Source: Calonectria ilicicola
Lineage: Eukaryota > Ascomycota > Sordariomycetes > Hypocreales > Nectriaceae
Reading direction: 5' to 3'
NCBI GenBank assembly: GCA_020809705.1
Contig: CP085834.1
Location: 1,860,001 to 1,924,000 of the forward strand
Length of the DNA: 64,000 bases
Below the pieces are notes generated by a model. It was not told where the DNA came from and did not search any database. It saw only the letters and a list, made by a program, of their open reading frames with translations. The translations under genes and the position numbers were made by a program. This document shows positions 6,647 to 51,710 of this stretch, piece by piece. Numbering within the stretch: the first letter of the stretch is position 1; each line of letters begins with the position of its first letter.

Positions 6647-9600
6647 CTAATGGAGCTCAAAATCTATTGTACGGCGCAAAATGGCCTCTTCGTCCAGCCC
6701 AGCCAAAGCCTCGCCATCCATGTAACCCTGAGCATAGCACTCTCCCACAAATTCGTAATACTGCCCCCGCATACTGTCTTTTGGTCTCAGGATAACAGGG
6801 ACAGAACATCCAAATAGAACGCAGATCAAGTCTCCTATTTCCATGTCACCGGGTCCCAGGCCACTTACTGTCGTCCCCCCTCGCTTTGCGTTTGTACATT
6901 GCCAAAACTTTCTGTCTTGCACTACTGCCTCTACCCGTTTGAGGTATCTGGTGACCATACGGGGTAGAGTGTTGCCCTTAATGAGTTGGGACACAGCTAA
7001 AGCTCCATTTGGCAACGTATGCCCAAGAGCGGCAAGACAGGCAGCACGGAACCAAGATGGCGAGTGCCGACCAGCATCATCGCGGTCTGCTACCAGTGTT
7101 CTCCAGACTCTGTCGCTTATACTGCCATCATCTTTATTCCATCCTGCCATGCATAAACCTTCACCGGGAATTACTCCTTTTTGAATGGGGCCGCAAAGGC
7201 TTGTCACAATTCCGATACGAACCCCTTCCGCATTCAACCTCGGCGGCCTCCCCGGTTGGTTGATTCCGTTTCGCGTGGTCCTCCTCGTGGAGTAGTTGAA
7301 ACGACAGCGTGCTACCATACTCCGCGACGCGTTATAAGTGCGCGAGCCTGGTTCTCCAACAAGTGCTTCCGCTTCCATGTGCCTTGTCTGCCCTTCTGTA
7401 GTGGACCGACGTATTACTTGAATCCACGTGGGCAACGACGACTCGAGGCCTTGAACAGGACTCGGCGAAGCAGGCAGTGCCCATGCCCGACACAAGATAT
7501 CCAATGAACCAGTAGAGGCCACGCAATGCTTCACAAAGTGCACATATGTATAGGGAATTGACCGTGTGTAATCGGGGATGAGCGAGTGCGGGCCTTGGGC
7601 AGGTCCAGGGAGCGCCATCGGCCCATCGCTTTCAAGAGGCAGCAGAGCATAAATACCGTCTCGCGGGTCAGTAGCCTCAAAGCTTTTAAACATATATACC
7701 AGTGTCTCCACGTTGAATGTGCGGTCCAGGATGTCACCGTTATGACCTTTGCGGAGCAGCTTGTTTGAAGCGGTGACGATGGCGCCAGCACCAGACCACT
7801 CGATGCCGCTAAAAGATCTAGCTACATAATCACCATAACTAGACTGCTGACAAAAGTGCCTAATTTCGGCCAGATGCTCAAGAAAAATCTCCACTGCAGA
7901 AGCAAAGTCGTCCCACGGTATCTGCTTCAAGCCGCAGTGAACAGTAGCACGATGCGAGGCTGTGACTTCTTGAATCACCCATCGCCTGGTAAACCAACTT
8001 CGATTGAGGAGGTTGGCAAATGTGTGATAATTCAGCAAGCCTTTTGGGATTAAATATGATCCGGTCAGCATGTTGTCTAGATTCGTCAAGTCCAAAAGAA
8101 GCGCAGCGAAATCAAGCGGATGGATGGGCGAGAATTCTTTGATATAAGTTGGAACCCAGTGTGGGCCGGGCTCTCCTAACCAAATCGCCGTGTTGTCAGC
8201 ATTGCGGTAAATCTCGAGCATCTTAGGCAGTTGGTGGCTCTTTTCGACATCATCGGCTTGATTGATGCAGATGGCATCTATCCAGAACCACAAGTCCAAA
8301 GTCTGAGAGCGAAGACATTTCAGTGCGTTGTAGAGGTTGTCGCGGATAAGAAGCTGACGAGGTTTACCTCTAGATTTAGATGGAGGTTCATCTAAATCGC
8401 GAATGTAAATCTCGTGACTTGCATCATCAACTCCCCAACAGTAAGAAAGAGCTTGATACGAAGGCACCGCTGAGTTGGCGGGCTGGGTTTGGAAATAGAA
8501 TGTCTGAATACTGCACGAAATATTATCCAACATCTCTCCTCTCTTGAGGCAGAGAAGGCGGATCTGGTCTGAAGTGATAGTGGTATAAGCGAACATGGTA
8601 GATTCACTCAACAGTGGCGTATTACAGGGACTAAGCTCCGGAGAACCCGATCTTTGTTGTGTATTTACTGCAATCATTGGCCCATTCTGGCTGCGAAGAG
8701 ACTGTGGCCAATCATCAAATTGTTGGGAGGGCTCATTGTGGATATTTGATACTTCTGGCAACAAACTGTGAACAGAGGCAACGATCGGGTCTGAAGCTTC
8801 GCCGTTTTCTCTTTGCGGGGGCAAGGTAGCCGAATTAATTGTATTCGAATTGTCTCCAGAGATATCCGACCAACTTGCCGAGACGGTCGAAGATGTTGGT
8901 GATGGAGGTGACGATATTGAGTCTATTCGAGGTTGCTGAACGCTATCGATACTTTACGTTAGCAACATAAAACGATTTATTCGCCGCTCGGTACTCACCC
9001 TACTCCAACAGGAAACTGATCGCTCACCTCTAGAGGCTCTGCGTCAAAAATCCAGCTATGAGAGGCAGCTTCTCGAGCTGTGAGCCTATCACTAGGCGAA
9101 ACGGCCATCAATCGTTGAATAAAGTCACAACACTCTCCGCTCATAGTAATTCCTTGGTCACCTTGGATAGCGCATTCGACGGGTTGCAAGCCATGTCTTA
9201 TAGCATAATTTACGAGCTCATAAACACTCCGAAACGGGACACGGCCAACAATGATACGAAATGCCACCGCTCCCAGAGCCCAAATATCAACTGCGGGTGC
9301 ATTGATAGACTTTGATTCGGAAAATCCATGTAATTCGGGAGCTGCGTAGTGACGAGTTCCTATCATTATCGTGGTATCACGAATGAGGCTCAATCGCGCG
9401 GAGACACAAAAGTCTCCAATCTTTACCCACCAGTCAGGACTTCCTCTACGAACAAGAATATTCTAGAAGAATAATATTACTTTCCTAATTATAGTTCAGG
9501 TGTGGATGGACATACGTACATGGGGTCTGAGGTCTTGATGCACGAATTCATTTTCATGCATAAAGACAAGGCCTTCGGTGACCTGGCGTATTATATCAAT

Positions 9601-10172
9601 TGATTCATTTTCTGGAAGAGGGCGATCCAGAAACCTTTCGAGATCGCCTAAATGCATAAACTCCATTGACAGGTATACTTTGTCATCGTGTTCATACCAT
9701 CCATTTGATTTAACGAAGCAATGTTGATACTGATTAGATTAGCCTTAGCCCTCTGGTTCTTCTTGATTATGGAGAATCACACCCTCGCGTTAGAAAGCCT
9801 GGCCATGATTTCCATTTCGCGTCGGATCATATTCTTGGCCTCTTGGTCGCCCCCTGACACCGTGTTTGCAATTACCTTGACGGCTCGAAGTTGACCTCTT
9901 CGTGGGCCTGATTCACAGGCTTCCAAAATGACTTCGCTAAACCCCCCCATCCCTATACGTCGCCTGGGCCTCCATACATCGTGGACAATTTGGCCTCTGG
10001 CTCCAGCTACAGCACTAAGCAAGCGGTAGGTATGACGTGTGACGCCATCCTCAAATGTAGTCTCAAGGCGCGAGTCCTGGAGAATATCCGGCGACGGGCT
10101 TGCAATGCTTGACATCCTGTTAGACTGAGGAGAAGTCGAAAATATTGGCGATGTTGGCGGTAAGCTGAACAT
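6647..10172 (-). CDS. Protein kinase-HET domain fusion protein
   Basis: Four exons: 10172-9783, 9729-9520, 9462-8999, 8942-6647, in phase, 1119 residues. The long HET frame has no ATG near its 5' end (it opens at a TTG) and joins the kinase frame through a 56-nt intron with GTGAGT, GCTAAC and GATAG signals. Residues about 70-340 are a kinase domain: glycine loop RIGMGGFSEV, AVK with Lys99, APELHG, DIWALGAVAF. The catalytic loop reads HQDLRPHN and the DFG motif reads DFC, so activity may be reduced. A Ser/Pro/Thr-rich linker leads to a HET domain from about residue 517 (YQALSYCWG, FWIDAICINQAD, STRSWFTRRWVIQEV type) and the usual HET-protein C-terminus (GDLICVLFGC, YMDGEAL). HET domains trigger cell death in heterokaryon incompatibility. 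Head-to-head with the related kinase at 10886; see the third paralogue at 48958. Confidence 0.85.
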
Positions 10173-10885
10173 GACAAGGCTGTCTCACAAGGCGAACTTG
10201 TACCAGTCGCAATGCTTACTAAGGTTCAGCGCTTCGTGCACAACTCGACTTGCTCTCAGAAAAGACCGCTAACCCATTTTGGAGAGGGCTAATTGCACTC
10301 TCCACTGTAATGAACTGATTGGATCTTTATCATGGTACATTCTATTGAGGTTGGTGAGACGACTCAGGACATGCGAGTGGAGTGTACTAAGAAAATCACC
10401 ACCGCATTATCCCCAAGGCAGATCATGGAGCTATGCCTGCAGGGGTTGAATTACATGAATGACATCGAAGGGCAACGATCTCAATTTTGCTGGCCGAATT
10501 GCTAGATAAATTAGTCATAGCGACAAGCTCTATAATTAATATTGACTGGTCTAATGACACAACAAGCAATAGCAACAACCTATTTACACAATATGCAGGG
10601 CCCAAAGGCAGTAATTTGGCCAACCATACGGTCATACAGGGTAACGAGACTATCCCCACAACTATGCGCAAGCCTGAAGTAGCTTGCTGACCATCATCGA
10701 ACATCACGTGATAGCGAACCGGCTGGCATGAGCGTGAGGCGAGGCCTGTAAAATCGCGGCCCCGCTTGGGATTGATTACCTTGTGCCTCATTCAACTCGA
10801 CAGGTCATCAGCAACATCGGATTCGTCAAACTTTGCTGCCTTGTAGATTGTGGGCTGCGAGACTTATGCGCACGCTACGAAGACA
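10173..10885. promoter_or_regulatory. Shared divergent promoter of two kinase fusions
   Basis: 713 nt separate the start codons of the kinase-HET and kinase-NPL4-ENTH genes, so any shared control acts here. A palindromic CACGTG lies at 10705-10710, the site type bound by fungal bHLH factors. Function of the site is inferred only from its sequence. Confidence 0.4.
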
Positions 10886-13410
10886 ATGGCAGACCGAATT
10901 TCACTGCCTGAACATGTTCGTGACTCAAAATTGTTGACAATTCAGCAGGATGGCTTTACTGTACACTCAAAGCCATCCTGCCGACGAACATCGCAAACAA
11001 GGGAGTCCTGGAGTGTAGAGAAAATGTTAGGCCATGGTGGAAATGGAGTGGTCTGGTTACAGCGCAGAGCGGATGAGACCTTCACTGGTCCCCAATTCCG
11101 TGCCGTGAAGCAGATTCGAGTTGCCCAAGATTCCAAATCAGGCCCAAAATTATATATGCGGGAGCTGGAGGCATTAGCAAAGTTTTCTCAACCTAGGGTA
11201 CCATACTTCTGCTCATATGCTATTCGTATATTTACTTACATCTTCCTTCTAGTATACCGACTTTTTTGTTGAGTTATATGGATGGTACATCGACTCCTCA
11301 TATCTTCACATTGCTCTGGAATACTGTGAACACGGCGACTTGATGGTATACCTTAAGAACAAAGGTAGCTTACCTGAGAATGAGGTGCAATACATCTCCG
11401 CACAAGTTCTTGGCGGGATATCCATAATGCATCAAGCTGGGTTTGCACACCGCGATATCAAGCCAGCCGTAAGTGGTACATTCGAATCTGGAATCATGGA
11501 GCTGAAACATTTATCAGAACATTCTCATCAAAAGCAGACCTCCCCAGGATTGGTGGGTGAAGGTTTCTGACCTAGGTTTGAGTAAGAGAACTGAAACATT
11601 GGCCGGCTCCACAACAGTACGAGGGACCCCAGGCTACATGCCTCCCGAGACTCTAGGGCTGGATGGGGGTCAAACAGGTCTTAACCCACACTTGGCAGAT
11701 ATGTGGTGTCTTGGCGAGACAATCTTCCAAATGCTGACAGGAAGAGGAACATTTAGTCACATCATGGAACTTGTCAACTACCACAGAGGCGACACCGAAT
11801 TTCCCATTGAAGAGATGGAGGTGGCGAGCTCAAGCCCTGAGGCCATTGGGTTTGTCAAATCTTTGATGGCTGCACTTCCCGATAAACGCCTCACAGCAGT
11901 CGAAGCCCAGGCGCATGATTGGATGAGGCCATCATTTGAAGAATTCAAATCAATATCAGAATTATTCTTACCAGCGGAGACTGGCTTGCATGACCATGAA
12001 ATTCAGGGAAAGCTTTCGCGGCATCATGTCACAGATGATCACACCCAAGCCTCCGCTGCATGGTCTACCATGACTGCTCAGCACATTCCTGATTCGTTTT
12101 ACACAAATACAACAGATTATGCTGCTCTACCACAGACAGCGCAAACAAGTACAACCGCTTCTGGACCTTCTATACAAGTCTTATCAGAAGAGGCAAGTCA
12201 GATGTCTTCCACTTCAACATCTCAAACCTCACTAGGTCCAAATGGAAAGAGTCTACCGTATAGGACCACTGACACCCCGAGTGAATCGAATGCGAACGTG
12301 GTTGATCAACCGCTGGAACATTTACGGAACGATAACCTCGATGATTCTGGGGGTCAAGAAACTGCACCGCCTCCGAAAATATTGCTGCACCTTCAAGGAC
12401 CTGACGGTATGTTGGGTCTCAACATTGATGAAACAGCTACATTTCGGCAATTACGAATATTGGTAAGCTACTCTTGGTAGCTGTATTTCCCATTGAAGTA
12501 ACGCGCTAATCCGCTTGTTGTAGCTCCTAGAGCAACTACCTGAAACCGTTGACCTAAAGTCAATCATGGTAACGCAAGTTCCGGGCGGCTCAAAAAGATT
12601 AATTGACATTCTCGGTTTAAAAATTAACCAAATGGGGTTTAAGTGAGTGTCTTGTACTTCTCTACCCCTATCTTACCGAATGTTAATATTATTGCTGCTA
12701 AGGCATAACGATATCATCCATTTTGACTACAAGCATGACAAGAATCTTGGTCAAGATGAAGTATATTCCAGTCGCCCCCGGTCACTTGTGGCGTCTGGCA
12801 CCGCAAAGGTGATGCGGAATATCAGAACTGCAACCAAAGGCCCAAATACAGCACAAATAAGTATCAGACAAGGTCACAACTGGCGCCATAGTAATCTAGA
12901 GGAATGAGGGCTAACTTAGTTGGGATAGCTACTGATAACAGCCCGTCAGGCCCAACTCAAGCTCAGATGATGGAAATAGCGAAGAGGACCCACGGCATGT
13001 ATGTGACCGTCCTTTCATCGTGTGGCATTGATACTAAGCACACCTTTTCTGGATTAGTGGATGTGTTTATATTTTGGATGTTATAGAAAGCCGGTTAAAA
13101 TCTAAGGCGGCAAATTGGCGGCAAATTCTCAATGCACTCCATGTTCTTGAGATTTGTCTTCTTGAAGGATCTCGACATGTTGTTTCATGGACTAAACAGC
13201 ATGTTGAACTTATTAACTCTCTCCGAAAATTCCATTATGTTGACGAAAATATTGTAGATGGAGGAGAGGAGAGTACGTATTTGAAATATTGAATATGCCA
13301 ATCCACACTGACAAAATATAATAGTCCGGTTAGCCGCTCGGAAATTGGCTTCGTGGATCGAAGATGAAAAGCCGCTGCGAGACGCTCGAAAATCGAGACA
13401 GATGGCATAA
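10886..13410 (+). CDS. Protein kinase-NPL4-like ubiquitin fold-ENTH fusion protein
   Basis: Eight exons: 10886-11197, 11253-11468, 11518-12462, 12524-12642, 12703-12860, 12920-12998, 13058-13272, 13325-13410; phases agree, 709 residues. Kinase domain about 45-310 with LGHGGNGVV, Lys75 in AVK, HRDIKPAN (Asp172), SDLGLSK (Asp194, DLG) and YMPPE, so it should be active. Residues about 463-544 match the N-terminal ubiquitin-like domain of Npl4, a Cdc48/p97 cofactor (LQGPDGMLGL, LLEQLPETVD, MGFKHNDIIHFDYKH). Residues about 562-705 match the epsin N-terminal homology domain (ATDNSPSGPTQAQMMEIA, KAANWRQILNALHVLE, GSRHVVSWTKQH, LRKFHYVDEN, IRLAARKLASWIEDEK). ENTH domains bind phosphoinositides in endocytosis. 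The intron 12861-12919 removes the stop seen at 12905 and restores the first ENTH helix; without it the protein would stop after NLEE and ENTH would be a separate fragment. Confidence 0.85.
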
Positions 13411-14391
13411 TCATGATTGACCATACATATACTCCCTTCGCAAAAGGGCAAAACTGAAGAAGAAAAACCAACACGAGGGCAAACGAATCAACACTGCAAT
13501 TGATCAATTTTCATCCACACAACTCCTCTCAATATAGCGTCTATACAAGTGTTGTTTTAATATCTAATCGTGTTCAACTTTTATCCTGAATTGTGTATTG
13601 AGAAGTATTTGGTTAGCTAAATGGAGCTAGATTCGTTGAACACAAAATAGACTGCCACATTTTTACATTTGACCCTTAGCCAGACTATCTACTCTGATAT
13701 ACTGGTTTCGTTAGTACGAGATGGAACATAAGCGGCATATCACTGAGTACGCGGTGTAACGGTTCCCAGTATCTCGTCAAGGCAATCAAAAACTTCAAGT
13801 TAAACCAACCTGACGTTTTTTAATTTCAAGCAATTGCGCTCTTGCTTCGTTAAACCACGTCGGCCAGACTCACTATAACTAAGCAAAACTAGTTGCTGAG
13901 TTCCAAAGATAAAAGCAGGAGGAACCGTGGCGCGTATGTGCTTGCTATGGGCGCCAGCTCTTCAGCTCACTCATTAGACAACGTTGGTTAATTAGTTGTG
14001 TATCTCACTTGGCGTGTGTCATATTGTCCGAAACAGCGCATCATTTCGTAGGCTTGATTTTTGACTTGTGATATTCAATCCAATCATAAGCACCGTTTCT
14101 GCGAGGTCTTGCAACAATTCTAATAATTTGAACATTCTAGCGCCGGCACAACATAACCGGACAAAGCAACAGAACCACTTCCCGGAGGGCAGTTCTCCGG
14201 GATTTCGGCATTTTCGCCTTCACATGGGTTAAATTGGGTTATTGACCGACAATTTCTACAGGTAATGCGTTTATTTATTTTGGACATCTCCTTTACACAA
14301 ATAGAAAGTGAGGTGAGAACACGATACCGAATTTTGCCCCACACTGTCGCGGGCTGCATGAAAAAACTCGGAATCTTCAGGCTGATGGCTT
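13411..14391. other. Convergent intergenic region
   Basis: About 980 nt between two 3' ends. A 79-codon minus-strand frame at 14120-14359 has Cys pairs but no support as a gene. Nothing else recognised. Confidence 0.45.
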
Positions 14392-17300: not shown

Positions 17301-17549
17301 AGTATCAATTTTCGATACAAGGGTGCGTATCAAGTACTTGTGGAAAAGGGCTGCGGCAATAGGTAAGTATATAGCGTCGTCTGTTCCGAGTGGTGCGTAT
17401 GCATGAGAGGAAAAGCCGAATTTAGGATTATTTAATTCAGTTTTCGTGCTCTCAGTCGAAGATATTTTGACGAAGTAGCCACCGGCGCTGGACTTGAGAT
17501 CCTTAAAAGACGCATGAGCATTTTGGCTAGCTCCTTGGTCTGGCTCCAT
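14392..17549 (-). CDS. Large protein of unknown function, about 914 residues
   Basis: Start at the ATG at 17549. Exons read as 17549-17152, 17073-16551, 16465-16138, 16078-15795, 15741-15661 or shorter, 15607-15474 and 15405-14392. The first four joints are in phase with good splice signals. The joint between exons five and six is unresolved: the strong donor GTATGA after 15661 puts the next exon out of frame, while a weaker GTTTAT donor about 17 nt earlier keeps the frame. The C-terminal 338 codons are one open block. I recognise no domain. The middle is acidic and low-complexity (DEVEPEEENNN, DSDQEDTSELPKKRKG), and the tail is rich in Asn, Gln and Ser with a basic patch. The N-terminal half is compact and aromatic-rich, and looks folded. 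The gene may be intact or carry a one-base lesion near the run of seven C at 15576-15582. Confidence 0.65.
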
Positions 17550-33548: not shown

Positions 33549-35142
33549 ATGTCTGCCCACTTGGAGAAGCTCGCGACGTTCGCGTCGAAACCTCGCATCT
33601 TTATCCTCACGGACATGCTAAATGAGCCGGATGACTCGCAGTCGCTGACCCGTTATTTGCTGTACGCCAACGAGTTTGACACACGCGGTCTTTGCGCCAC
33701 CACCTCCACATGGCTGCGCTCCAGCACTCACCCAGAGGAGATCCAGCGCATCATCGCAGCCTATGGAAAGGTCGTTGAGCGCCTGAACAACCACGTGCAC
33801 CCTGATTTCCAGTTCCAGCCAGCGGAGCACTTTCAGGCCTTGGTCACTTCTGGACCCAGCGTAAGTAGTAGATGCATTAAATTACGACGAAGATAACTTG
33901 ACGACCGACTAACGTTTTTCACAGGTTTACGGCAAAAAGGCATTCAAGGAACCCCTTAGCGAGGGTGCGCAACGTCTTCTCGACGCCCTAAAGGAGTCTG
34001 AGGAGCCTCTATACGTTCCTGTATGGGGCGGTGTCAACACGCTTGCCCAAGCTCTGAAGCACCTCAGCGAGACTGTCTCTGTCGAGGAAGCTGCCAAGCA
34101 GCGCGCAAAGCTCAGGGTCTACACCATTTCCGACCAAGACGACACTGGCGCATGGATCCGCGGCAAGTTCCCCGACGTCTTCTTCATCGTGTCGTCCCAC
34201 GGATGGAACGAGTACGATGAGTCGACCTGGGGAGGCGTCAACGTGCTGGCTGTCAACGGGCCGGACCACACCAAGGTGCTGAACCCATGGCTGACTGAGC
34301 ACATTCGCATCGGCGAGTTTGGTGCCGAGGCGTATCCTCTAGTCAAGTTTGGCATGGAGGGCGACTCACCATCCTTTTTGTGGCTCGTACAGAACGGGCT
34401 CAGTCATGGCGACCACATCAACTGGGGTGGTTGGGGCGGTCGCTACACAAGGCCGCAGGCTGAGGCCGATTGGGAGGACGGCATCGATCAAAACCACTTT
34501 TACAACGTCACCGAGTATGCTGTCATCGGCGCTGATGGAAAGAAATACACCGACCAGAAGGGAAGCATCTGGCGTTGGAGAGACGCCATGCAAGACGACT
34601 TCGCAGCGCGTATGCACTGGACAGTCGCAAGTGGTTTCGCTGACGCGGGGCACCCTCCCGTTGTCGATGTCAACGGCCACCAAGGCGTTGACCCTCTTCT
34701 CTTAGATGTCAAGGCTGACGGGACATATGTCCTTGACGCCAGTGCCACATATAGCCCTGACACAAGGGACGGCCAAGCTGCTGCGCTCGACTACGTCTGG
34801 ATGCTTTATGGCGATGTCAATGCCTTCCACATGTTTGGCCGAGGACCCAAGGTCCTCATCGAAGCGGTTGAGAGTTCACCGGCGGATCAAAAGCCTGCCG
34901 TCCACGAGGCTGGTTTCGCCAGCTACACTCGGGGTTCCAAGGTCAAAGTGACGGCACCTCAGCGAGAGCGCAACCCTCAAACGGGTCTTGCCACGCCAGA
35001 CTTCCACGTCCTGTTGCAGGTTACCAATACAGCTGGGCCATACCCGATCCGCAGATACAAGAGAGTGATTTTCTCGTATAAAAATGATGACTCGCCAGTG
35101 CGTATGGGCAAGATACCGGATGGCTTTTTCGAAAAGGAATAA
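33549..35142 (+). CDS. Sde182-type nucleoside-hydrolase-like protein (DUF1593)
   Basis: Two exons, 33549-33860 and 33925-35142, in phase across a 64-nt intron; 509 residues. The N-terminal domain starts with the metal-site pattern ILTDMLNEPDD and continues with VPVWGGVNTLAQAL, YTISDQDDTGAWIRG, IVSSHGWNEYD and the Gly-rich NWGGWGGRY segment. These define the cellulose-binding Sde182 nucleoside-hydrolase-like family. A C-terminal beta domain follows from about residue 340 (VLDASATYSPDTRDGQ). In bacteria relatives are tied to polysaccharide use; the fungal substrate is not known. No signal peptide is visible, so it probably acts inside the cell. The length fits the family and all landmarks are present. 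Confidence 0.92.
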
Positions 35143-35378: not shown

Positions 35379-38394
<3,016 letters not shown>

Positions 38395-39345: not shown

Positions 39346-41046
39346 GATTAAGCTCCAAGTTGCTGCGGCCAAAGTTATGATTCCGGTCACCTTCAAAACC
39401 AGGAGTAGATGGGTTAGTAGAGCTTTATATCTGGACATGCCCCCTGAAAGCATCAATTTAATGGAGTCTAAACAGACTATTGAAAGCCACTGGTCACTGC
39501 CAAGTCGATAGTTGCGCTGAGATCAAAGCCACAAATTTCACTGTTGGTATGCACCTCACAGCAGCGGCATCCAAGAAGACATTTATTTCTGCTTCGCTCC
39601 TCGTACATAAATCCTTCCTCTCTTTTTTATTTTTTTTTCTTTATCTATCATTAAAATATAAACGTTCTGATTCTCGCAATAATATTCCTGCATTGATAAT
39701 CCTCAAATTTGCCAAGATCTTAGTAACGACCAATGTGGAGCTGAGGCTGATGGACGGCTCTCACGTATTTGTGGATCTTTGTCTGACTTTTCCCAACAAA
39801 TCAAGCTTGTCGACAAGCCACCAACAACCATTTTGAACAAATCAAGGCAAGGTGTAAAAACAAATTATGCGACCGAATGTTTTCTTTTCAAGTTTAAGTA
39901 TATTCTTCCTGCTATCTGCTATGACGCTTACCCGATGGTATCATTTCCTGCCGAGTGAAGCTCAATTATCTCATCGACCTCGCTCTCATACATCCACCCA
40001 ATTAATGAATAGATACTAAGTACTCATTACAAAAAAAAAAATTAAACAAACCCCTAGGCCACTAAACAAACAAAAGGCTAAAAACCTTTAGATATTGTAA
40101 GCCACACAATGGATCAGAAGACAACATCGATGGAACCTTTAAGAGACCGCATTCCTGAATGCCTTGGGGTACATGACATAGGTTTCAACGAGGCTTCCCT
40201 GGAGAATTTCAATACTTGCGTTTTCTTTTCTCTTTTACCCCCAATCCACGAAGTAAGGAGTGTAGGGTAAGACGTAAAAAAAAATGGAGCACAGCGGCCC
40301 ATACGGAAAAATACCAGGGACGAAAGTTCCAAAAAAAAACATACAACAGCGAGGATTCCCCGGTCGTCACCGACCCGAGTACTAATTCACCGCTTCTCAG
40401 CTTGACTATGGGAGAGCGGACGGGATCCCGTATTTTCTGAGAGCTATGGTCGTATGTGAAAGATGAAGGCCGTTGTTCATACTATGAGCGGATCAGGCAC
40501 CATGATCATTTCCTTTCTGTAGACTGGCTATAACTAGGCGGGGCGGGCGGGTTCTGAGCCTAATAGAGGAAGGAATTGGAGAAATAAGTCTCATATCGCC
40601 AGCAGAGATTGTCAGTAACCCGGTTACCTTGGCCGGATAAGCATTTTTGGGTGAGCATACTCATTTCTTTATGTTAGCATAAATAACTTATGCAGACTAC
40701 ATCAGCACACTGGCCCAATCAATCACGCTTGATACCCCCACTATTATCAGCCAATGAACAGTCAGTACTCTCATCCTTGTCGTAAACATTTGGACATTCA
40801 CCAATGGGAAGACAGTTTGAATCGATTGTGGGGCTGGCCATGCACCACAAAAATTTGGACCATGGCCAACCATGCCTCAGTCAGCTTGACAGCCACTGAG
40901 CGCTAATGTGAATCATGATTGGGAGTAAGATCGACAAGGGAGCCTATTTTTGCCTATTTATTCAGCTTGTCCCTTTATATTGAGACCATACGTTCTGACG
41001 TTCATACCAATTGAAAGGTTTCGATTTTCAACCCTCATCATTCGCT
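39346..41046. other. Divergent intergenic region
   Basis: About 1.7 kb between the mucin-like gene and the Clr5-ankyrin gene, with AT-rich stretches near 39620-39660 and an A-run at 40030-40040. No gene supported. Confidence 0.4.
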
Positions 41047-44000
41047 ATGCCTCCCCGTCACGCCTTGGAAAACTTATCGGAATGGACCAAGTTCAAGGAC
41101 ACCATCCACAGCTTATATATCACACGAAATCTCCCTTTAGATGGTGTCGATGGTGTCATCGAATTGATGAAAACTAGCCATGGATTCCATAAATCGTAAG
41201 TGTTTATTAACGAGATTATGGTTTTGCGATGCTGACTGGCAAAGTAAATCCCAATATGTGTCGCAGCTGCGCAATTGGGGCATGGGAAAATATTCCAAAG
41301 CCACAGATCCTAATGATTGGAAAGTCGCTGGCTATAAGGTTTCCAAAGCCAAAAAGCGCGGAAAAGACGTTCAGTTATATCGTCAAGGTAAGTTGGTGAG
41401 CGGAAAGGTTCTACGGACACGAGGTTATATTACCAGCTTCGAGCAGAAGAAATTTGAAGGTAAAGCATCCTCATTACTGGATTATATCAATATCGATCAT
41501 CTAATCACCATCTAAGCTGCGTCTCCCAAAACACCGCCTGAGTTCGCCTTTTCAATCCAATCGCCCCCCCCAACCATAAGCCTAGATCTTCCCTTTACCA
41601 CTTTCACAAACACAATCCACAACTTGACAGGTTTTGGTAAGCTCAAGTTCGCATTTCTCAAGAACGATTATAATTCTTACATATGGTTTCAGCCCCATTA
41701 ATTAATCTCGTTGGTCTTGGTAATACTGTGGCACGACTGTACACGTCTGTGCCATTCCGAAAAACGTGGTCCTCTATGATGGTGTACCTTCCGCAATCTT
41801 CAAATTGGTGCTCACAAGCTAAAATTGAAGAAATGATCCAACAAAACGGTATCAAGGCCTTGGTAAAAATCGTTGCCTATGGCCTTTCCAACAACCATTT
41901 GACAGATCTTGGCCCTGAGGGAGGTGAAGCGCTTTTGAGTGTACTGAAAGCTTTGGATTTGCTGCGCTTGATATCTTCTCCCCCTGTCTCGAGAGAAGCG
42001 ACTGCTAAAGCTTTGCTCGAAAGTATTTTCACGCTTGCAGTTGAAGGAGGGGATTTGGACACCGTTACTTATATGCTTGAGAATGGGATAAATCCAAACG
42101 GACGCCAATGTCACCGGATGATACGAAACACCAAATACTACCTCACACCTCTTCAATATGCCCTCTTGAAGGGAGATCTCGAAATATCTAGGGTACTTGT
42201 TACTCACAAGGCCAAAATTGATGACCCTGGAAACGGATGGAAAAGCAGTGCAATTTCGCTTGCTCTCATCGGTTTTGACGAAAGGTTGGAATCACGCATC
42301 ATGGTTGAAGATGATGAAGACGAGGACTCCTCTGAGATGGAGAAAACTATCAGTAATATCACAGATTTTGTGAAGTTTCTTCTATCTCATGGAGCAATTG
42401 TCAGCGACCGAGACCTTTTGATTGATAAGCCGGAATTATTTGATCGCTCAATATCGGCTAGTGCCCTTCCGGAATGGGGATATGAATGGCAGACACCACT
42501 CACAATAGCTTCAAGATATCAACTCATGGAGCTAGTCGATATTATATTGGGTGGTGGGCCATGTTCTAGTACTCCATCAATAATGGACATTACCACAGCA
42601 CTCCAAGCATCGTTACATACCTACGCGAACTGGTACCAGAGGAGGTGTCGAGGGGCTGATGCCGGAATAGAGCCACAATTTCCACTGCAAATGATTTGCT
42701 ACCTTCTTGAGGCTGGAGCAGATGGTAATTGCTTTGGTTTTGACCGTCATTTTGGCCATAAACAAGGTTTTGACCGTCATTTTCCCCATAAACGTGGTTC
42801 TGGCTGGTTGAAACTTCTCGGATATTCAAGTGTGCCATGCTTGGAAACAATCGAGACATTGATCTCCCATGGAGTAAAGCCCGACATTTCCGACCTAGAA
42901 CACTTTCTTAGCACGGGGAAATTTGAGCTATGTCCACGAGTATTTGCAGCTGGTATCCATGATTTTGTGAAACAAACTACCTGGATTTCGCTTTTGCAGG
43001 CTCTTTTCCCAACAGGAGCACATTCGCTCTGCCAGAGTCTAGATGAGATGAAAGATTTGAATTTGCAATCACGAATTGTGCGGCAAATATCCGATTATTT
43101 TAAACCAAATACATTGAGAGAGTTTGTACTATCTTGCAACTGTGCAGCTCAATTGCTTTGGCAATTTAAATACGATTGGAGGCACATATTAGTTATCAGC
43201 ACCCTTACACCCAACATGTTGCGAAATATATGCGGCCATAACATTGGAAAAGTGATACAAAAAATGGCTGAAGGCACGGTGGGGTTGATTCATTTGGCTA
43301 TTACTCGCAAAAATCAACCATTGGCAAAATTTCTTATCGAAGCGGGTCTCGAGGTCGACGACGTGGTTGAACATGATCATGTGCCTGACACGGCGCTTTG
43401 TGCCGCCATCAGACAAGGTGACAAACTCTTGGTCGATCACCTAGTCAAGAGAGGCGCTCGATTCAACGTTAATGCCGGATGGTGTGGGTGTGGTCATGCA
43501 CGCTACGTCAGCGCTACGGTGGCTGCTTCCGAGTGTAATGACATGCATCTACTCCGATTTCTCGTTGAAATGGGCGCCGATATTAACGTTTATGGAGTAT
43601 CGCGTACACAGAACTCTATAATACTTTTGCCATCACTTCGTTGTGGAATTATATGTCAATGTTGCTGTATTACTCCATTGGCAGCCTGCATTGCCATAGG
43701 AAATACCTCACTTCGCTTTTTAGAGCTCTTGGGGCTAGGAGCACATCTGGATCCGCTTGATAAAGTTGAAGGATATAAATACCACATGTCGCCGCTCACA
43801 GCATTATTTCTTTCCCCTCAACTTCCCAGCACGGAGGCTCTGGTTGTTGAGACACGAGCTATACTTGCTGCCGGGGGCAGTCCCTTTGACTCTATAGCAT
43901 TGGGAGCTGCACATTTCGCTTCTCCATCAGCCCACGGACCACTCAGAGTTCTTTTGGAAAGTATCATATTTCAATCGAAGCCATGGGCTGGACCTAGTAT

Positions 44001-45774
44001 TGTCGGAACAATTGCTCTGATAAAAGCTATTCAACTTATGGATTTTGATCTTGTGAAGGCTATCATTGATAAGGGAATTTCATTTCTTGAAACAGGTATT
44101 CATTATATTTACCCTTCCCCCTTATACGCGGTTTTGTCTCGCACCCACATGTTTGCCGAAAATGAGAGCCTCGAGCAAAGACACAAAATCTTGCTGTTGC
44201 TATTGGCGGCAGGTTATGATCCACGTGGTTCAGACTCAATACGAGGTTGGGAAGGCGAAAAAGTGTCGTTACTCCACACGGCAGCCCGACTGGGAAATGA
44301 GAGCATTGTCAGGATTCTACTTGATCATGGCGTTAGACTGTCAGAAACAGAATACCTTGATTTTGGTTGCCTGTTCTTTGCAGATGAGATTTGGGTGAAT
44401 ATGTATGGGCAGGTGCTTGACTGTCCCTATACATCGCTCGTATCTTTTGACATCAAAATGACTCTTCTTGAATATGGAGTGGCCCCACTTAATACTAAAA
44501 GATTAGTCAATCTTGGCTGCGAGATTCATGGTTCATTCAGATCTGCAGTCACTGAAGATACCTTGCAGCACGCTGCGCTGCTGGGATTTTATGATCTTGC
44601 CGAGCATCTGATTTTGCAAGGTGCCAACGTCAACACAGCCGGCCACGTTGAGGGTGGCGCAACAGCGCTTCAGTTTGCCATCACCGCAAAACATACTAAT
44701 GTCATAAGGCTGCTTCTAGACAATGGCGCTGATCCAAATGCATCTTCCTCTTTTTATGACCACGCCACCTGCCTACAGTTTGTTGCTTCAATTGGAGACC
44801 TAGAGATGGCGAGGCTATTGGTTCGATACGGCGCAGATGTCAATGTTAAGCCTAATGCCTTTGGCCTTTCGAATACCACTGTACTTCGACACGCAGTAAA
44901 TAAAAGGTCATTTGATATGGTGAAGCTTTTTATCAGATGCAATGCAAATATCAATGCTTCCTACACTCATAGCATGAAGGGCGCTACGGCGCTTCAACAT
45001 GCGATTAGCAAGCGAGATCCAATGATTGTCGAACTTTTGATCAATAATGGCGCCAATGTTAATATTCATTGCTATGATGATACTGATAACGCCCTGACGT
45101 TGCTTCAATTGGCTGTGAAAAAAGAATGCTTTGACACTGTCAGGCTCCTTGTCGAGCACGGTGCAGATCCCAACGCAACTGTCCATCCCGAAAATTGGAC
45201 CGCACTAGAGTTTGCAATTGACGGCGCGAATACTCGAATAACGGAGTATCTTCTCGCAAAGGGCGCTAAATTTTCATTCCCTTCAACTTTGTTGACTTCA
45301 CAGCTGTTTACTTCAATTGGAGATTTAAGCGAAGTAAAAAGGCTTGTCAGGAGCGGTGCAGATGTTGATGGAGTCTCCGAACTCGGCATAACTGTTCTTC
45401 AGCTTGCTGTTATGGGTGGATATATCGATGTGGTCAAGTTCCTGGTTGAACACAACGCAAATATTAATGCTCCACCCGATGGGATTGAAGGTGGAACAGC
45501 TTTGCAAATCGCCGCAGAGAGAGGATTCTGTGCCATCGCAGAGTATTTAATACGAAAGGGAGCCTGTCTGAATCCAACTGCAAGGATGGAATTTGAAATC
45601 AGCTCCCTTCAGTCTGCAGCAGAGAATGGCAGGCTGGACATGGTGCAACTTCTGCTCCTCAATGGTGCTGGTCAGGGAGAAGAGGGCGAAAAGAGTGTAA
45701 AGGCTGCACTCGAGGCGTCAATGATAAAGGGTCATTTTGCAATTCATGATTTGATCAAAGAATATTTCGATTAA
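41047..45774 (+). CDS. Clr5 domain-ankyrin repeat protein
   Basis: Four exons: 41047-41195, 41245-41459, 41517-41636, 41693-45774; all phases agree, 1521 residues. The 1363-codon ankyrin frame seems to have its own ATG, but that ATG (41683) falls inside the last intron (41637-41692), and the splice puts it in frame with an N-terminal Clr5 domain. Clr5 landmarks: WTKFKDTIHSLYITRNLPLDG, then SKSQYVSQLRNWGMGK. A Pro-rich linker (SPKTPPEFAFSIQSPPP) follows, then an N-terminal helical region and at least a dozen ankyrin repeats towards the C-terminus (TALQFAITAKHTNVIRLLLD, GADPNA, TALQHAISKRD). Clr5-ankyrin proteins are an expanded, mostly uncharacterised family of Sordariomycetes; Clr5 is a short helical domain named after a fission-yeast silencing factor. 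A 10-residue tandem duplication sits at 42736-42795. Confidence 0.92.
42736..42795 (+). repeat. In-frame 30-bp tandem duplication
   Basis: Two adjacent 30-bp units differing at a few bases encode GFDRHFGHKQ and GFDRHFPHKR between ankyrin-like segments. This is recent slippage or a small charged insertion loop. Confidence 0.85.
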
Positions 45775-46888
45775 GCGACTTAGTAAGGAAGAAGCACGAC
45801 CCGGCAGAGGCCGAGCAAGTACTAATCAGTAGAGCTGGTGTGTCGTCTCATCGGCAGGGCCTAGTGGACAGATCCATCAAAGCGAAGGAAAAGATGACTT
45901 GGAAGATTCTGTTGTGGCACATACTTGTGGAAACACGGCAGGTACAACATCAACCAGAAATACTGGGGTGGGGACGCCTTGGAAAGATAAGATGTCCAAT
46001 GTATACTTCAAAATGGTCTTGAAGCTCGAATGGCGAAAACAGGCTTGAGTCAGAAATATACAACGTACTTAAAGTTGCGAAGTTGAGACAGTGATGAACA
46101 GAAATCGAAATATTCCATTCGACGTGTTCCGAACTTCTTCATGCAATACTGTTCAGCGATTGCAACTCGTGTTACGTATGCACCAGGCTCGCCTCGGAAT
46201 CGCATCGTAGAGCTAGCTACCCTGCGGAATAGCACAGGACAAGTATAAAATAAATAAGGGCAGTTTTTATTGTTTTCATCTGGAATTATCCAGGTAATTC
46301 ATCTTCTTGAATCTATTTTTGATTTAGCTGTCCTTGATAACATTGTTCTTTTTTCCTTCCCATCTGATGGGGCGCAAGTCGCGTCATGCACTAGAAAGAG
46401 TCTGGATCTGGGTTCACGCATCTGAACTTTTGAACAGGAGCAAGGGAGCGAGGTTGAGCAAAGAGTAAACCTGGCTGATGGGTCGAGGCTTGGGCTTGCA
46501 ACAAAAAATCACTCAATGTAGGCCAGGGAGACTGCTACAGAAAAGGGCTGCCGGACAGTCATTCTCGGAAAAGGGGGTTTGCCCATCTTAGGGCTCAGTC
46601 TAACACTGAACGGTACTAGAGTATTCTCCAGCAGTTATTTTCATAATACAAAATTGGAGGACGTTGTGATGGCGAATAAGCTTGCAATGACCGTGATTTA
46701 TCACATGGTTATTGAGCCATCTTTATTTTCAAATACTGAAACGATTGACAGATAGCGATAATCAACATGAGTGAAAGCAGTCCCTTCGATCATCTTCGCA
46801 AATATCAACACACAAGCGCAAATATTAGAAAAAAACCCTCCTCCAATCCTTCATCTCCAAAAAGTGCGAGAGCACCAGATCAACTTGC
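45775..46888. other. Convergent intergenic region
   Basis: About 1.1 kb between two gene ends. The plus-strand frame 46767-47228 overlaps the real minus-strand gene and is its shadow. Nothing else seen. Confidence 0.4.
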
Positions 46889-47467
46889 TCACACCTTGTG
46901 CGAAGATACACCAACACCAGTCTCTGAGCTCCCGGACACAGATTGGATGGTGATCCTCGAATCGCTGTGTAAAATGATCTTCATAACGCGGTCGGCGTCC
47001 TCTTCCCTGAGAATATGTTGCTTGAAGCCAGATGTAGTCTCAGAGTTGAACAGCGCATCAGTTGTGGTTTTTGCGATAGCAGCAGCAGCGGCGGCGGCGG
47101 CTACAGCTCCAGCGCCAGTCGGGCTGGTGAGAGCGGCGGCAATGGCACCAGCGGCTCCAGCAATGGCTGTCGGGGAAACCTTGTCCAGAAAATCGAACAG
47201 TCCACGGAAGTTTTGGGGGTCAGAATAGTAGAGCGTCTTCATGTCTGCGCTATACCACGTAATGACCCACCAGTCCTTCCCGGTGGTCCAGAAGCCGGTG
47301 TTGTATTCAACCTCCAACTCTTCACTGCCATGATGGTCGTCAGGGATAATACCCCAGACTTGGCGGTTCTTGTAATTGTCGCTGTACTTGTGCAACAAAC
47401 TCACGGCAGCGATAGGCTTGCCGGTCTCGTTCTTGACCAAAACGCGAGCGGTTTGTCTGGTGCTCAT
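46889..47467 (-). CDS. PUD1/2-like protein (up-regulated in daf-2 domain)
   Basis: Single exon from the ATG at 47467, giving 192 residues; the frame is open for 28 more codons upstream but that part looks like leader sequence. The first 100 residues match the beta-sandwich domain named after nematode PUD proteins: VLVKNETGKPIAAVSLLHKY, then VEYNTGFWTTGKDWWVITWY and DPQNFRGLFDFLD. An Ala/Gly-rich hydrophobic stretch of about 35 residues follows (AIAGAAGAIAAALTSPTG onward), then the conserved ALFNSETTSGFKQHILREED and a short Ser-rich tail. Function in fungi is unknown. The hydrophobic segment could insert into membranes, which is inference. No signal peptide. Confidence 0.85.
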   Translation of the reverse strand: MSTRQTARVLVKNETGKPIAAVSLLHKYSDNYKNRQVWGIIPDDHHGSEELEVEYNTGFWTTGKDWWVITWYSADMKTLYYSDPQNFRGLFDFLDKVSPTAIAGAAGAIAAALTSPTGAGAVAAAAAAAAIAKTTTDALFNSETTSGFKQHILREEDADRVMKIILHSDSRITIQSVSGSSETGVGVSSHKV

Positions 47468-48957
47468 GGTGTGAAAAGGTGTGGATCTCTGGTAATATGG
47501 TTGAGTCGGCAAAGGTGTGATATTGGAACTTGTTAAGAGATATACCTGCAAAACAAGACTAGGAATGTTGATGTTGTAATGGTATTGTGTGTGTTCTTAG
47601 CAGATAGAAGCTGTGTCTGTGATGATTGTTGATCTGTCGCTCCTTCCCTCCTTTATATACTATAGAAGGGGTAGAATGCGTCGTACTCTGTTAGCTCTAA
47701 ATAGTGATGGAAGCTATTTCCGATTGTCTATTCGAATGCTGAGGCATCGTCGATGTCCGCTGTGGCGCACTAAGTTGTGACAACTTGCTGCCGTACAATG
47801 TCACACGGGCTTGCCTATGGCTGAATGATGCAGCATTCAGCCAGCCGTGCCCGTGGTATCCATAATCGTATATCCTTGAAAGGCAGTCAGGCTGTGCATG
47901 TGCTGGCGGATTTACCTGGATTAGGAAAACGAAGCCGAGTTATGGCTGGCTGAATACGTGTATTTGCCTCAATATTGGTCACACTATTCATTGAATCCTC
48001 CACTATTTTGTGACGAGATTGAAGTGGCTGGCGGAACGTGCTTGTTTGGGATGACACACAAAATCCTGTTAAGCTGATGATGGCGCACCACGTCTAACTA
48101 TGCTTAATGAGAAGTGTGTTGAAGCGGGGCATCGTATTTTGGTCACGAACCACGAAGATGTGATGTCACGGGGATAGCGTGAAACTGACTGGGCTTAGAA
48201 CGAGTGGCTTTGGTATGAACTATCTGGAACTATTGGAATTAGTGCGGCTAGCGATGAGTGATGCCCGTTTCTATCACCATCCAATGAGCTTTGTCCTTCT
48301 AGCCGTGGCGGCGTCCCTCTAATTTAGTGGGTCATCGTTCAGCTATTATACAAAAGCCCTTATCCGTACAAATAGAGATGATGGGGAACCGGTGACTTGC
48401 TAGCGCTGATTAGTCCTAGATTTGCCAAGAGAATTATTTGGCTAGCCGCCGATGGCTTGCTAGCAATACATTCGCCTACTGGAGGAGGTACGGCCAACCC
48501 GGGATGTCCAAGGTGGCGCATTGAGACAGTGGCTGGGAGCCGAACCCTTTAGGCGAACCGCCAACGTCCAAGTAATACCCATCCGGAAGATCAAAGCCTA
48601 CTCAAAGGCACTTCTTAATACAAACTTGTGTTTTCGCCCTTTCATGCGTAGGTAAACACCGCCAAATCACTTGCTACTCTTAATGAAATATTGAAATCTG
48701 CAGTTTATAAGTGTGATGTCTCTCTTATGTTTGAAACTGAGTAAAATTCACAGCTACGTCTAATTCTTAGTGAGAGTTATGAGTGTAAGAGTTTGTGTTA
48801 GTGACTGTGGTTGGATTTATTAGATTCAATAAAAAACAAGATTATCATTAATAACAAATTTATGTAACTTTCATCAAATTTATCTTCTTAACTCTCCCCA
48901 AGCCATAGATACGACAGCTAACACTCCTAATCCAAATACAATCATTCCGTGCGAGCA
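47468..48957. other. Intergenic region
   Basis: About 1.5 kb holding the promoter of the PUD-like gene and the 3' flank of the kinase-chitin-synthase-like gene. No supported coding region. Confidence 0.4.
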
Positions 48958-51710
48958 CTACGCGAAAAACCTCTTCGCCAGACCAAAAGCATCCCTCCTC
49001 CGAAATCTTGGTACGTCCGGCTTCATGTTTAGTTCAGCTAACAACTTGCTCAACGAGATGACTCTAACATTATCTGGGAATATATCAAGGTTGGACCACG
49101 CCTTATTGAGGAACTCTGTAGCCCAAAGATCCTTATCCGCTATTTCTGTTAGATCGACAATTAGGGCAGTGTTTACACCTGAGCCGATGGAATGGATCCA
49201 ATAAAGCGGCCAAACATTCAAGGTAGTATGTATACTATCGTCATCCAACTCATCGAACCCGGGCTTAGTCAAAATTATTTGGACGGGAGTTGCAAGTTGA
49301 AATGCGGCCTGCTCTCCCGTTAAGGTGGGGGCGCTAGGATGTATCTGAGTAGTGTACTATTGAAAAGTCATGTATATCAGTCAGGTGTCTCGATTAGTCG
49401 ATAAAGTCAGAAGTGCTTGCCTCGGGGGCATAAGCAATAGGCTGTTGGACTTACCTCGCGAATAGTCCCATATATAATCTTTCCATTGATATGAGTAGAG
49501 CTGTCGTTGAACTTTGGATTTAGACGCTCGTCATCTAGCCTACTAACCACGATACCTAGAGGAAGATGGACAGCCATTTTCTCCAATATCTGCTGAAGAC
49601 CTGGTAGTAGATCTTCTGAGAGGTGGATATGAACTATAATCTTCTTCCATGCTGGTGTATTAGTTTGCTCCATCGTTGTGGGGTCGAGCAATTCAAGAGA
49701 CCGAACAAGGAACTGCCATCGCATTATGAATTTAGATGGCGTCTCGTCATGATCCAGCCGCATCGCAAGTACAATATTGATAGCCCGTGGTTTAGAGAAA
49801 AGAGAAGGGCGAAGGACATAATTTTGCTCTCGCATTCTCTCCGGCCGGCACGTAAGGGCTGTATATCGCCAGTGCGTGAATTCGTCTCGCTCGCCATGAG
49901 GTATTGTATCGAGCACATCCTGGGGCACTGGGCAATCCAATATCAAGTTTCCCCGATACGACATGACTCGGAATTCGGTGATGTCATATTGCTCTGTTTC
50001 TGAGTTGCTGGCTTGTGGTTCATCTACCTCATCTGATGCTTCAGAAAGATTGGAGGGTCTAGGTCTGTCATCAGTGCCATCTATGAAACTGGGCTTCGGA
50101 GCCGAAGGGCGCGTGGGTGGATCAAAGTCTCGATGGCTATATTTGTCCATTAGGGGGACCTTGCCTGGACGGGGAGGCCCCGGAAGGTAATTATATGATA
50201 ATGGATTCTCTGAGGCCTCAGGTTGTGACCACATGTTGCCTCCTTGTTCTCCTTCATCCCACGTGTACCCGTTTTGAATCTGCGTCACCTCTTCTCTCAT
50301 CTCATGTAAAGATGGGAATGAAGGTGCACCTTGAGAGTTGGTATTGGGCCACGAAGCGGAGGCAAAATCTGTATTGTTCGTCCGAGTATTGGCTGCTGTT
50401 TCGCGTTGCGGTTGCACGCTGTTGGGCAGTCTCTGTGTGACTTCTTCCACTGTGTTTTTGGAAGATGTCAAAGAAGAGTGGCCTTGTGTAATCGTTTCTG
50501 TCCAAGAGGCGGAGGCGTCAGACGCTTGATTCTGGTCCAGCCTGGAAGGGAATGGTTCAATATTATGAAAACTCCCGTGTTGCAAGGAGTTGGAACCACT
50601 CCCTAGATGTGGGGATCCAGCCTCCATCTCAACCCATGGATGCATTAATGCATCCTTCGCAGTAATTCGTTTCTCTGGCTCAGGTACAATGAGGGAACTC
50701 AGGAAGGCAATTGCATCTTCACTAACTTGCAATTTTTCCAGAACCTGTCGAGGGAACTTTGTGATGCCATTGTAATAGTTTCCCACCAATGCCTCGTTTG
50801 GAAACGTAGACTGCCCGGAAATGACTCGGAAGATAGTCTCCCCTAAGCACCAGATATCTACAGCATAGGGACTAGCCATTCTAGAATCCCCATGGTACCC
50901 AAGAAGCTCTGGTGGCATAAAACTTCTTGTTCCCCGCACCGTGGTAGAATCGGCCATTTCTGCCGTCCGCTTGCTGAGTCCAAAATCACCTAGTTTTACC
51001 CACCAATCGTTCGGAGGGTGGGACTGGATTAAGATGTTCTACGAAATGTTTGTTAGTAGCTTGTTCATGGCACAAGGCGCCAGCATTAGAATAACATACT
51101 GCAGGTTTGATGTCTCGATGAGTGTACTTTTCTTCATGCATTCTCGACAATGCATCCACAACTTGCGCGGCAACATCTCGTGCCTCCTCCTCGGGCAACC
51201 GACCATTCGGGCATTTGTCAGGGTCCTGAAGGTATTCCTTTAAATCCCCCAGGCTGCAATGTTCCATAGCAATATATATATGAGTCGGGCTAGTAAACCA
51301 TCCGTGCGCTTTGACGAAGAGCGTCGAGTACTGCGAAATGGTATCAGCACCGACTAATCGAGGCTGGATCGGGGAGATCTAACCCTTGCTTGCGAAAATT
51401 TGAAGATGGCCTCAAGCTCGCGGACAATCAGCTCCGAGCTGATCTTGCGTTGGCTTTCGGAAATCCTGATGCTCTTGACGGCTCTGTATTGGCGTTGGCC
51501 AAATTGTTCGCTAGCCTGCAAGTCGACCGAGCCCTGGCCACCACTGCCCAAGTTCTGTATATCAACCCATATTTCCTGGCTCTTCTTCCCTCTATAGCTC
51601 GTGGCTCGGGTATGGATGACGCAGTGCCGCTGCCCGTCGTAGTGGAATGTCGCAGGTAGCTTCGAGTCTCGCACAAGTTCGGGAAGGTCTCCGAGGTAAG
51701 CGCCAGCCAT
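48958..51710 (-). CDS. Protein kinase-truncated chitin-synthase-like fusion protein
   Basis: Four exons: 51710-51384, 51330-51100, 51038-49455, 49356-48958; phases agree, 846 residues. Kinase domain about 50-325 with NLGSGGQGSV, Lys79 in AVK, HRDIKPAN (Asp182), GDFGLSK (Asp204) and FMPPELLG; it looks catalytically intact. A Ser/Pro/Gln-rich linker of over 200 residues follows. From about residue 548 the protein matches the N-terminal and early catalytic part of class I-III chitin synthases: RGNLILDCPVP, ERDEFTHWRYTALTC, LRPSLFSKPR, then WKKIIVHI, IREYTTQ and PVQIILTKPGF. The match then decays and the protein ends. The later catalytic QRRRW motif and all membrane helices are absent, so it cannot make chitin. 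It is paralogous to the kinases at 6647 and 10886 in N-terminal motif and intron positions. Confidence 0.85.

Follow-up and report, generated by a model that had tools for sequence, protein, structure and literature searches.

Calonectria ilicicola kinases with exchangeable C-terminal cargo: a candidate family of fungal bait receptors, some of them paired with likely cell-death genes

The locus and its three kinase genes

The window analysed here is a stretch of 64,000 nucleotides from the ascomycete Calonectria ilicicola (assembly GCA_020809705.1, contig CP085834.1, positions 1,860,001 to 1,924,000 of the forward strand). An earlier note, made from the sequence alone, had placed three kinase genes in it, each ending in parts of a different conserved protein, and had likened them to the integrated decoys of plant immune receptors. 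All three genes, here called A, B and C, are confirmed by models that are open, spliceable and in frame in every exon, with GT-AG introns of 49-98 bases. The N-terminal motif described in that note is QDSRL in A and RDSKL in both B and C. Over the N-terminus and kinase domain about a third of the residues are identical, B and C sharing 34% and 36% with A, respectively. Two introns of the kinase part fall at identical places in the three genes, one between R and Y and the other between KP(A/H) and NIL. The features are as follows, in coordinates of the window, with exons taken from the spliced models.

6647..10172, minus strand: gene A, a degenerate family kinase joined to a HET domain (1119 amino acids, 4 exons)
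10172-9783, 9729-9520, 9462-8999, 8942-6647, minus strand: exons of gene A
8867..8884, minus strand: linker W motif of gene A, core VSASWS, beyond intron 3
10173..10885, no strand: gap of 713 bases between the outward-transcribed start codons of A and B, which stand head-to-head
10886..13410, plus strand: gene B, a family kinase with catalytic residues present, plus Npl4 ubiquitin-like and ENTH parts (706 amino acids, 8 exons)
10886-11197, 11253-11468, 11518-12462, 12524-12642, plus strand: exons 1-4 of gene B
12703-12860, 12929-12998, 13058-13272, 13325-13410, plus strand: exons 5-8 of gene B
12049..12066, plus strand: linker W motif of gene B, core ASAAWS
48958..51710, minus strand: gene C, a family kinase with catalytic residues present, plus the front of a chitin synthase, truncated (846 amino acids, 4 exons)
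51710-51384, 51330-51100, 51038-49455, 49356-48958, minus strand: exons of gene C
50499..50516, minus strand: linker W motif of gene C, copy 1, core ASASWT
50346..50363, minus strand: linker W motif of gene C, copy 2, core ASASWP

The C-terminal parts, referred to as cargo, are unrelated to one another, and the identities first given to them are borne out by Pfam and PDB matches. Pfam recognises HET in gene A (PF06985, E 1.8e-27, 96.9 bits against a curated cut-off of 22.5), ENTH in gene B (PF01417, E 2.6e-26) and Chitin_synth_1N in gene C (PF08407, E 8.2e-19). The Npl4 ubiquitin-like domain of B is silent in Pfam and was found through its match to the Npl4 structure 6chs (E 6.5e-8). The cargo of C matches the solved chitin synthase 7stl (E 3.7e-10); it does not extend into the later portion of the native enzyme, and the alignment over its second half is poor. 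Chance similarity is excluded for the cargo of the three genes because the E-values run from 8e-19 to 2e-27.

Gene A stands apart in its catalytic sequence, which reads HQDLRPHN with DFC in place of DFG. Among the 28 family members modelled, it is the only one in which both the catalytic-loop lysine and the DFG glycine are absent, and it is also the HET-bearing one. The HET domain had been counted as cargo; its identity holds, and it is better read as output.

A kinase family with a shared linker motif

The three genes belong to one paralogous family, as had been supposed. At least 28 members were modelled in the genome, namely A, B, C and 25 further genes built with a small splice finder, and paralogues of the C kinase are spread over the 69.9 Mb of the assembly. 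The ends of single models are provisional, since the splice finder can run into a neighbouring gene, as it did for A. For comparison, 86 public relatives were used, 71 of them from the best 120 rows of one search and 15 from a second. The whole protein of B and the kinase of C served as queries, giving the best 120 of 1966 and the best 120 of 3546 rows, respectively. These relatives are mostly from Sordariomycetes, with some from Penicillium and Aspergillus.

The family kinase is of the CAMK group, with RAD53, DAPK and CHK2 nearest by sequence, and its fold also lies among CAMK-group kinases. A Pfam scan of A, B and C found no FHA domain, unlike in CHK2 and RAD53 kinases, and no NACHT or NB-ARC domain. 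As this nucleotide-binding domain is absent from the three proteins, the family is not one of nucleotide-binding leucine-rich repeat receptors (NLRs). Where the models read them, the D and K of the catalytic loop and the D and G of DFG are retained in 27 of the 28 kinases; the automatic pattern used for these residues missed or mis-set a few rows. Variants include HLD in m_C3_4898 and DHG in m_C2_1571.

Approximately 38 residues past the kinase (10-90% range 28-52) lies a motif near T-E-A/P-S-A/G-x-W-T/S-T, the W motif, which is doubled in many members. Its strict form is present in 88 of 113 members (one partial row excluded), compared with a mean of 5.4 and a maximum of 12 in 200 shuffles. 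The loose form is present in 96, where the same number of shuffles gave a mean of 23 and a maximum of 34. Ten of the 17 members without the motif carry, by eye, a W-S/T/N/D variant in the same region. The motif was tested by shuffling because it is uninformative as a DNA pattern over the whole genome: 3 matches were obtained against 3 and 4 in a backward control, that of B being the sole family match. An AlphaFold2 model of the relative P0031, whose cargo was not recognised, did not predict docking of the motif on the kinase, and its linker was disordered at a predicted local distance difference test (pLDDT) of about 35. From this disorder, seen in the one model made, we infer that the motif may be a docking or phosphorylation site. 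The W motif, the 25 further paralogues and the head-to-head partners described below are additions to the earlier note.

Cargo types and their exchange

Thirteen cargo types were recognised in the 28 members of this genome. HET, Npl4 plus ENTH, chitin synthase, ENTH alone, PhoD_2, RhoGAP, WW, SH3-SH3-EH and PH_24 occur in a single member each, while Msb1 and WD40 occur in two members each. Ankyrin cargo is found in seven (one by Pfam, two by a 33-residue period, the others by eye), and B_lectin was matched at E 7.2e-7, slightly below its cut-off. Further cargo in public members comprises TPR, SH3, PF02179, PF23305, WD40 and, in Penicillium, RhoGAP. The public protein P0138, in which a kinase start is followed by TB2/DP1, was left out of account, since its annotation probably joins two genes. 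On the question of whether cargo is fixed across species, neither an ENTH nor a chitin-synthase domain appears in the precomputed Pfam lists of the family rows (best 120 rows per search, a few of the lists being partial).

Judging from the kinase trees, cargo has been exchanged repeatedly among the family kinases. In a careful tree of 55 rows, gene C with its chitin-synthase cargo and m_C8_632 with ENTH are sisters (100/98), nested in a 24-row clade (100/98); its remaining 22 rows comprise 20 with TPR, one with SH3 (P0008) and one without an assignment. In the same tree the SH3-EH kinase groups as sister with two kinases that carry TPR (100/99). Monophyly of the 27 TPR rows, a group named after the first tree had been seen, is rejected by the approximately unbiased (AU) test (p 3.4e-6). 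A wider quick tree (111 of 114 rows) requires 24 cargo changes among its labelled rows. ENTH occurs in two separate clades (B and m_C8_632, mutually 24% identical), and the RhoGAP kinases of this genome and of Penicillium belong to different clades.

Change is also seen between close relatives. Identity in each of the 13 close TPR pairs among public proteins is lower for the cargo (62-93%) than for the kinase (87-98%). The TPR cargo has a period of 42 residues in most rows tried, and congeners differ by approximately four and one whole 42-residue units (public proteins P0002, P0004 and P0006).

Cargo and its counterparts in the genome

A counterpart elsewhere in the genome was found for each of five cargo queries. 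Identity is 36% for the chitin-synthase cargo, 46 and 38% for epsins and 49% over 45 residues for Npl4, 68-81% for RhoGAP, 38-54% for Msb1 and 58% over the first part of PhoD. Absence of a kinase was seen for the chitin synthase frame L064 and for 120 public PhoD proteins, none of which lists a kinase domain.

The PhoD cargo retains 197 of the 282 columns that are near-invariant in the 120 public PhoD proteins. Three motifs that we take, from the metallophosphatase fold, to be metal-binding are changed in it: GGGD to GGGN, DDHD to NSDE and GDVH to GNTH. It is 55% identical to the native PhoD of the same genome, which itself is up to 88% identical to proteins of other species; the closest named relatives of the native protein among the 120 listed are from Cylindrodendrum, Neonectria, Ilyonectria and Fusarium (86-87%). 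The PhoD cargo is pseudoenzyme-like in its sequence, as the predicted metal-site motifs are lost and the overall similarity is kept.

Head-to-head partner genes

Eight of the 28 members stand, in seven pairs, head-to-head with a likely cell-death gene, either HET or a helical pseudokinase. A HET gene is divergent upstream of m_C5_698, the kinase with the pseudo-PhoD cargo (E 5.4e-33), and another upstream of m_C3_4898 (a partial frame, E 3.8e-7, found by reading the flank). A third lies 2.6 kb upstream of m_C6_3571, the intervening DNA having been read in part. A divergent HET gene lies within 3.5 kb of 2 of 27 kinases, for which a local null gives P(>=2) of 0.008 (149 listed HET matches, that of A excluded). 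This test scored 150 of 372 HET candidates, and the HET of m_C3_4898 falls outside the scored list.

The helical partners resemble P0075 of Fusarium agapanthi. This protein has a helical N-terminus and a kinase-like domain without HRD and DFG, HKN replacing HRD. Within one annotated protein the helical part precedes a family kinase start on the same strand, and the two may be either tandem neighbours or a true fusion. Helical proteins with 20-31% identity to P0075 are encoded divergently upstream of m_C6_1059, m_C7_1526 and m_C1_7585. The first of these kinases (L014/L048) carries about 500 amino acids of cargo without a Pfam match. Residues 1-494 of P0075 gave 18 matches in the genome, and ranks 1, 2 and 18 (200, 173 and 24 bits) are the neighbours of these three kinases. 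Given the F. agapanthi protein and the three neighbours here, the association of family kinase and P0075-type protein recurs in two species.

The model of P0075 has four long helices at pLDDT of about 60. A phmmer search of the PDB gave weak kinase matches (best E 0.0055) together with histone matches. The fold search returned generic helical bundles, neither HET-S nor MLKL being represented in the rows shown, which is no evidence against a HeLo fold. In three other open reading frames (ORFs) the P0075 kinase-like matches share ORF length and place with matches to the HeLo domain PF14479. HeLo places lie within 6 kb of any kinase in 5 of 23 cases (null mean 0.44) and P0075-like places in 9 of 17 (null mean 0.64); in three of the nine, kinase and P0075-like part lie in tandem within a single ORF. 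The counts derive from lists of 26 and 18 rows, less any second piece of the same gene, and second pieces were likewise removed from the kinase places, which were entered by hand from the kinase listing.

Similar neighbours (less than 6 kb away) occur beside kinases of other families. A HeLo or HeLo-pseudokinase gene lies head-to-head with such a kinase at C7:1790819-1794316 and C2:272722-274776, and near one at C1:6171264-6176618 and C10:1682905-1686184. This suggests a wider pairing of kinases with HeLo proteins outside the family. At C12:152176-154332, C12:1268403-1270547 and C2:887483-889519, a P0075-like pseudokinase comes directly after a kinase on the same strand; by frame length the two C12 cases are one ORF each, that is, tandem kinase-pseudokinase proteins.

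Proposed function and alternatives

The explanation that we favour, and hold to be somewhat probable, is that A, B and C are members of a family of kinase-based bait receptors paired with death executioners. The constant part consists of a short N-terminal element, the CAMK-group kinase and a flexible linker with the W motif. The exchangeable C-terminus either is built of repeats (TPR, ankyrin or WD40), as NLRs also have, or copies part of a conserved cell protein. The copied piece would serve as bait or sensor, such that interference with it or the binding of a foreign molecule alters the kinase, which in turn would act upon an executioner of cell death, for some members the product of the head-to-head neighbour. 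Two kinds of executioner are envisaged: HET proteins, and proteins in which a degenerate kinase accompanies a helical bundle, probably of HeLo type, much as MLKL serves RIPK3. For the pair in the window, the sensor carrying the bait would be B, and A, with its degenerate kinase and HET domain, would be its executioner. What the sequences show is the family itself, the identity and exchange of its cargo, counterparts elsewhere in the genome, one pseudoenzyme-like cargo and, in a subset, head-to-head linkage; sensing, kinase signalling, phosphorylation of a partner, cell death and an immune role we infer. Put more broadly, ascomycetes may possess a kinase-based immune receptor system parallel to NLRs, with a constant kinase and a signalling W motif, swappable baits copied from the fungus's own endocytic, polarity, cell-wall and phosphatase proteins, and plug-in executioners next door, either HET or a HeLo-type pseudokinase that would be activated as MLKL is by RIPK3; this wider proposal is tentative.

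The integrated-decoy reading of the earlier note finds partial support in a single kinase family whose unrelated cargos derive from endocytic, cell-wall, polarity and Cdc48-cofactor proteins, in cargo exchange, in the loss of the PhoD motifs and in the linkage of some members to genes of cell-death type. Several observations weigh against bait receptors with paired executioners. The RhoGAP cargo of this genome retains its arginine finger (GIFR, as in the native protein), for which reason bait cannot be claimed for every member; in the Penicillium RhoGAP cargo the sequence is IFK, K replacing the finger R. The Msb1 domain of the cargo is nearly complete (Pfam, E 1.8e-90), so that part of the cargo may still function instead of acting as a decoy. 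Cargo and kinase are conserved to a similar degree in three of four WD40 pairs (93 v 91, 92 v 88 and 86 v 82%); the fourth has 66 v 39%. Cargo was not recognised in seven of the 28 members (m_C6_5354, m_C6_1059, m_C2_7137, m_C3_4898, m_C2_1571, m_C7_1526 and m_C4_4509), four of which were scanned by Pfam. The ENTH part of B needs further predicted introns, one with the weak donor GTATCA. There are only seven pairs, found in upstream flanks of 615-1605 bases with one HET from the genome list, and gene C has no head-to-head partner in its upstream flank. The third P0075-type neighbour is weak at 24 bits, and a HeLo fold of this partner type was not confirmed, Pfam being silent, the model at pLDDT 40 and the fold search unspecific.

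The main rival is that the C-terminal parts are ordinary targeting modules, acquired through domain shuffling. ENTH, EH, SH3, RhoGAP, Msb1, PH, WW and the chitin-synthase front would dock a signalling kinase at endocytic, polarity and cell-wall sites of the hyphal tip, where it would phosphorylate local substrates with no immunity or bait involved. Many of the cargos indeed belong to the machinery of tip growth and endocytosis, in which they serve as interaction or membrane modules, and the intact arginine finger, the near-complete Msb1 domain and the catalytic residues kept by all but one of the kinases agree with such a role. However, turnover of cargo among close kinases would be odd for a housekeeping function, as would the loss of the predicted PhoD metal-site motifs and the truncation of the chitin synthase. 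Repeat cargo differs by whole units between congeners, and the scheme, which we regard as unlikely, does not account for the HET and helical pseudokinase genes linked to family kinases. Alternatively, the family could be a kinase counterpart of fungal NLRs devoted mainly to conspecific non-self recognition (heterokaryon incompatibility), the variable C-termini recognising a partner's allelic variants of the native proteins and the HET or bundle proteins executing. This would be a special case of the bait receptors, the attacker being another strain. It is in keeping with the HET linkage, the HET fusion and the variation in repeat number. The available text of PMC10890737 reports that het-B specificity in Podospora is set by the variable C-terminal lectin fold of a HET protein. 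The native PhoD is well conserved across species, unlike a polymorphic target, and incompatibility as the main function appears quite improbable.

It is also conceivable that adjacent kinase and cargo genes have been run together in the models, at least in A and at the ENTH end of B. Without the weak-donor intron, gene B meets a stop at 12907, and the run of the splice finder from A into the next gene illustrates that single predictions can fuse neighbours. The HET ORF of A has a plausible internal ATG, after which the N-terminus presumably resembles those of HET proteins. In C, and in B for the Npl4 part, the linker motif and the start of the cargo share one open exon, so that the fusion is independent of any predicted splice. 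In A, the W of the motif is in frame after intron 3 and about 36 residues past the kinase, near the family median, which supports that splice. Single public proteins are also annotated as kinase plus TPR, SH3, PF02179, WD40 or RhoGAP. An artefact of this kind is very unlikely.

Relation to known systems

We take the proposed bait receptors to work like plant kinase fusion proteins, paired NLRs with integrated domains (NLR-IDs) and fungal sensor-executioner modules. As in integrated decoys, the signalling protein is fused to the duplicate of a conserved host protein that also exists elsewhere in its ordinary form. An active-looking kinase next to a partner with a putative helical bundle and a degenerate kinase also recalls RIPK3 and MLKL; the P0075 type would correspond to MLKL, its bundle fold being predicted. 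RIPK3 is not known to carry an exchangeable bait. We know of no kinase-pseudokinase, necroptosis-like receptor system with built-in baits in any kingdom. No description of a fungal kinase family of such design was found in the literature searched (titles and abstract openings, without preprints).

Wheat kinase fusion proteins (Sr43, Pm4, Lr9 and the tandem kinases) likewise combine a kinase with varied extra domains. They are plant proteins, cloned and shown to confer resistance. In the available text on the wheat fusions, no single kinase family with one linker motif or with a head-to-head HET or bundle-pseudokinase partner is described. A, B and C differ from paired plant NLR-IDs in having no NB-ARC or NACHT, the conserved core being a kinase. 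As far as the available text of PMC12258605 goes, these pairs similarly place a bait-bearing sensor head-to-head with an executor and use host pieces as baits. For NLRs of Sordariales with non-canonical domains, among them a CHK2-like kinase domain, its authors suggest integrated decoys. In that proposal an NLR contains the kinase as its bait, whereas the present family has the kinase as its unchanging core and takes its cargo from other proteins; that text has no mention of the family.

Fungal two-gene death modules include NWD2/HET-S, PNT1/HELLP and protease/gasdermin (PMC12881547, PMC10197012). In the available text of these sources, a sensor likewise lies beside its executioner, which may be of HeLo type, and some HELL domains are fused to a kinase or pseudokinase. 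The sensors differ in being NLRs or proteases acting through amyloid motifs or cleavage, and a bait-bearing neighbour kinase is not described there. In the present family such adjacency was seen for a subset, the seven pairs, whose neighbours would be the executioners.

The same sources, so far as available, treat what fungal immune sensors detect as an open question. The findings suggest an unrecognised family of fungal immune sensors that use copied host parts as bait. Each cargo would represent a guess at an attacked target: epsin, Npl4, chitin synthase, RhoGAP, Msb1 or PhoD phosphatase. The cargo list would thereby provide testable bait-ligand pairs, along with partner genes to co-express, and the family would offer a case of kinase-bait receptors outside plants that is independent of NLRs.

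Other features of the window

Three further frames were recognised in the window, two of them close to gene C.

41674-45774, plus strand: open frame of 1366 amino acids with seven Ank_2 stretches, no domain being recognised at its N-terminus, 3 kb from gene C
46889-47596, minus strand: PUD1_2 (Up-Regulated in long-lived daf-2), E 1.5e-58, between the ankyrin frame and gene C
33913-35142, plus strand: Sde182-type nucleoside-hydrolase-like protein, E 1.2e-57

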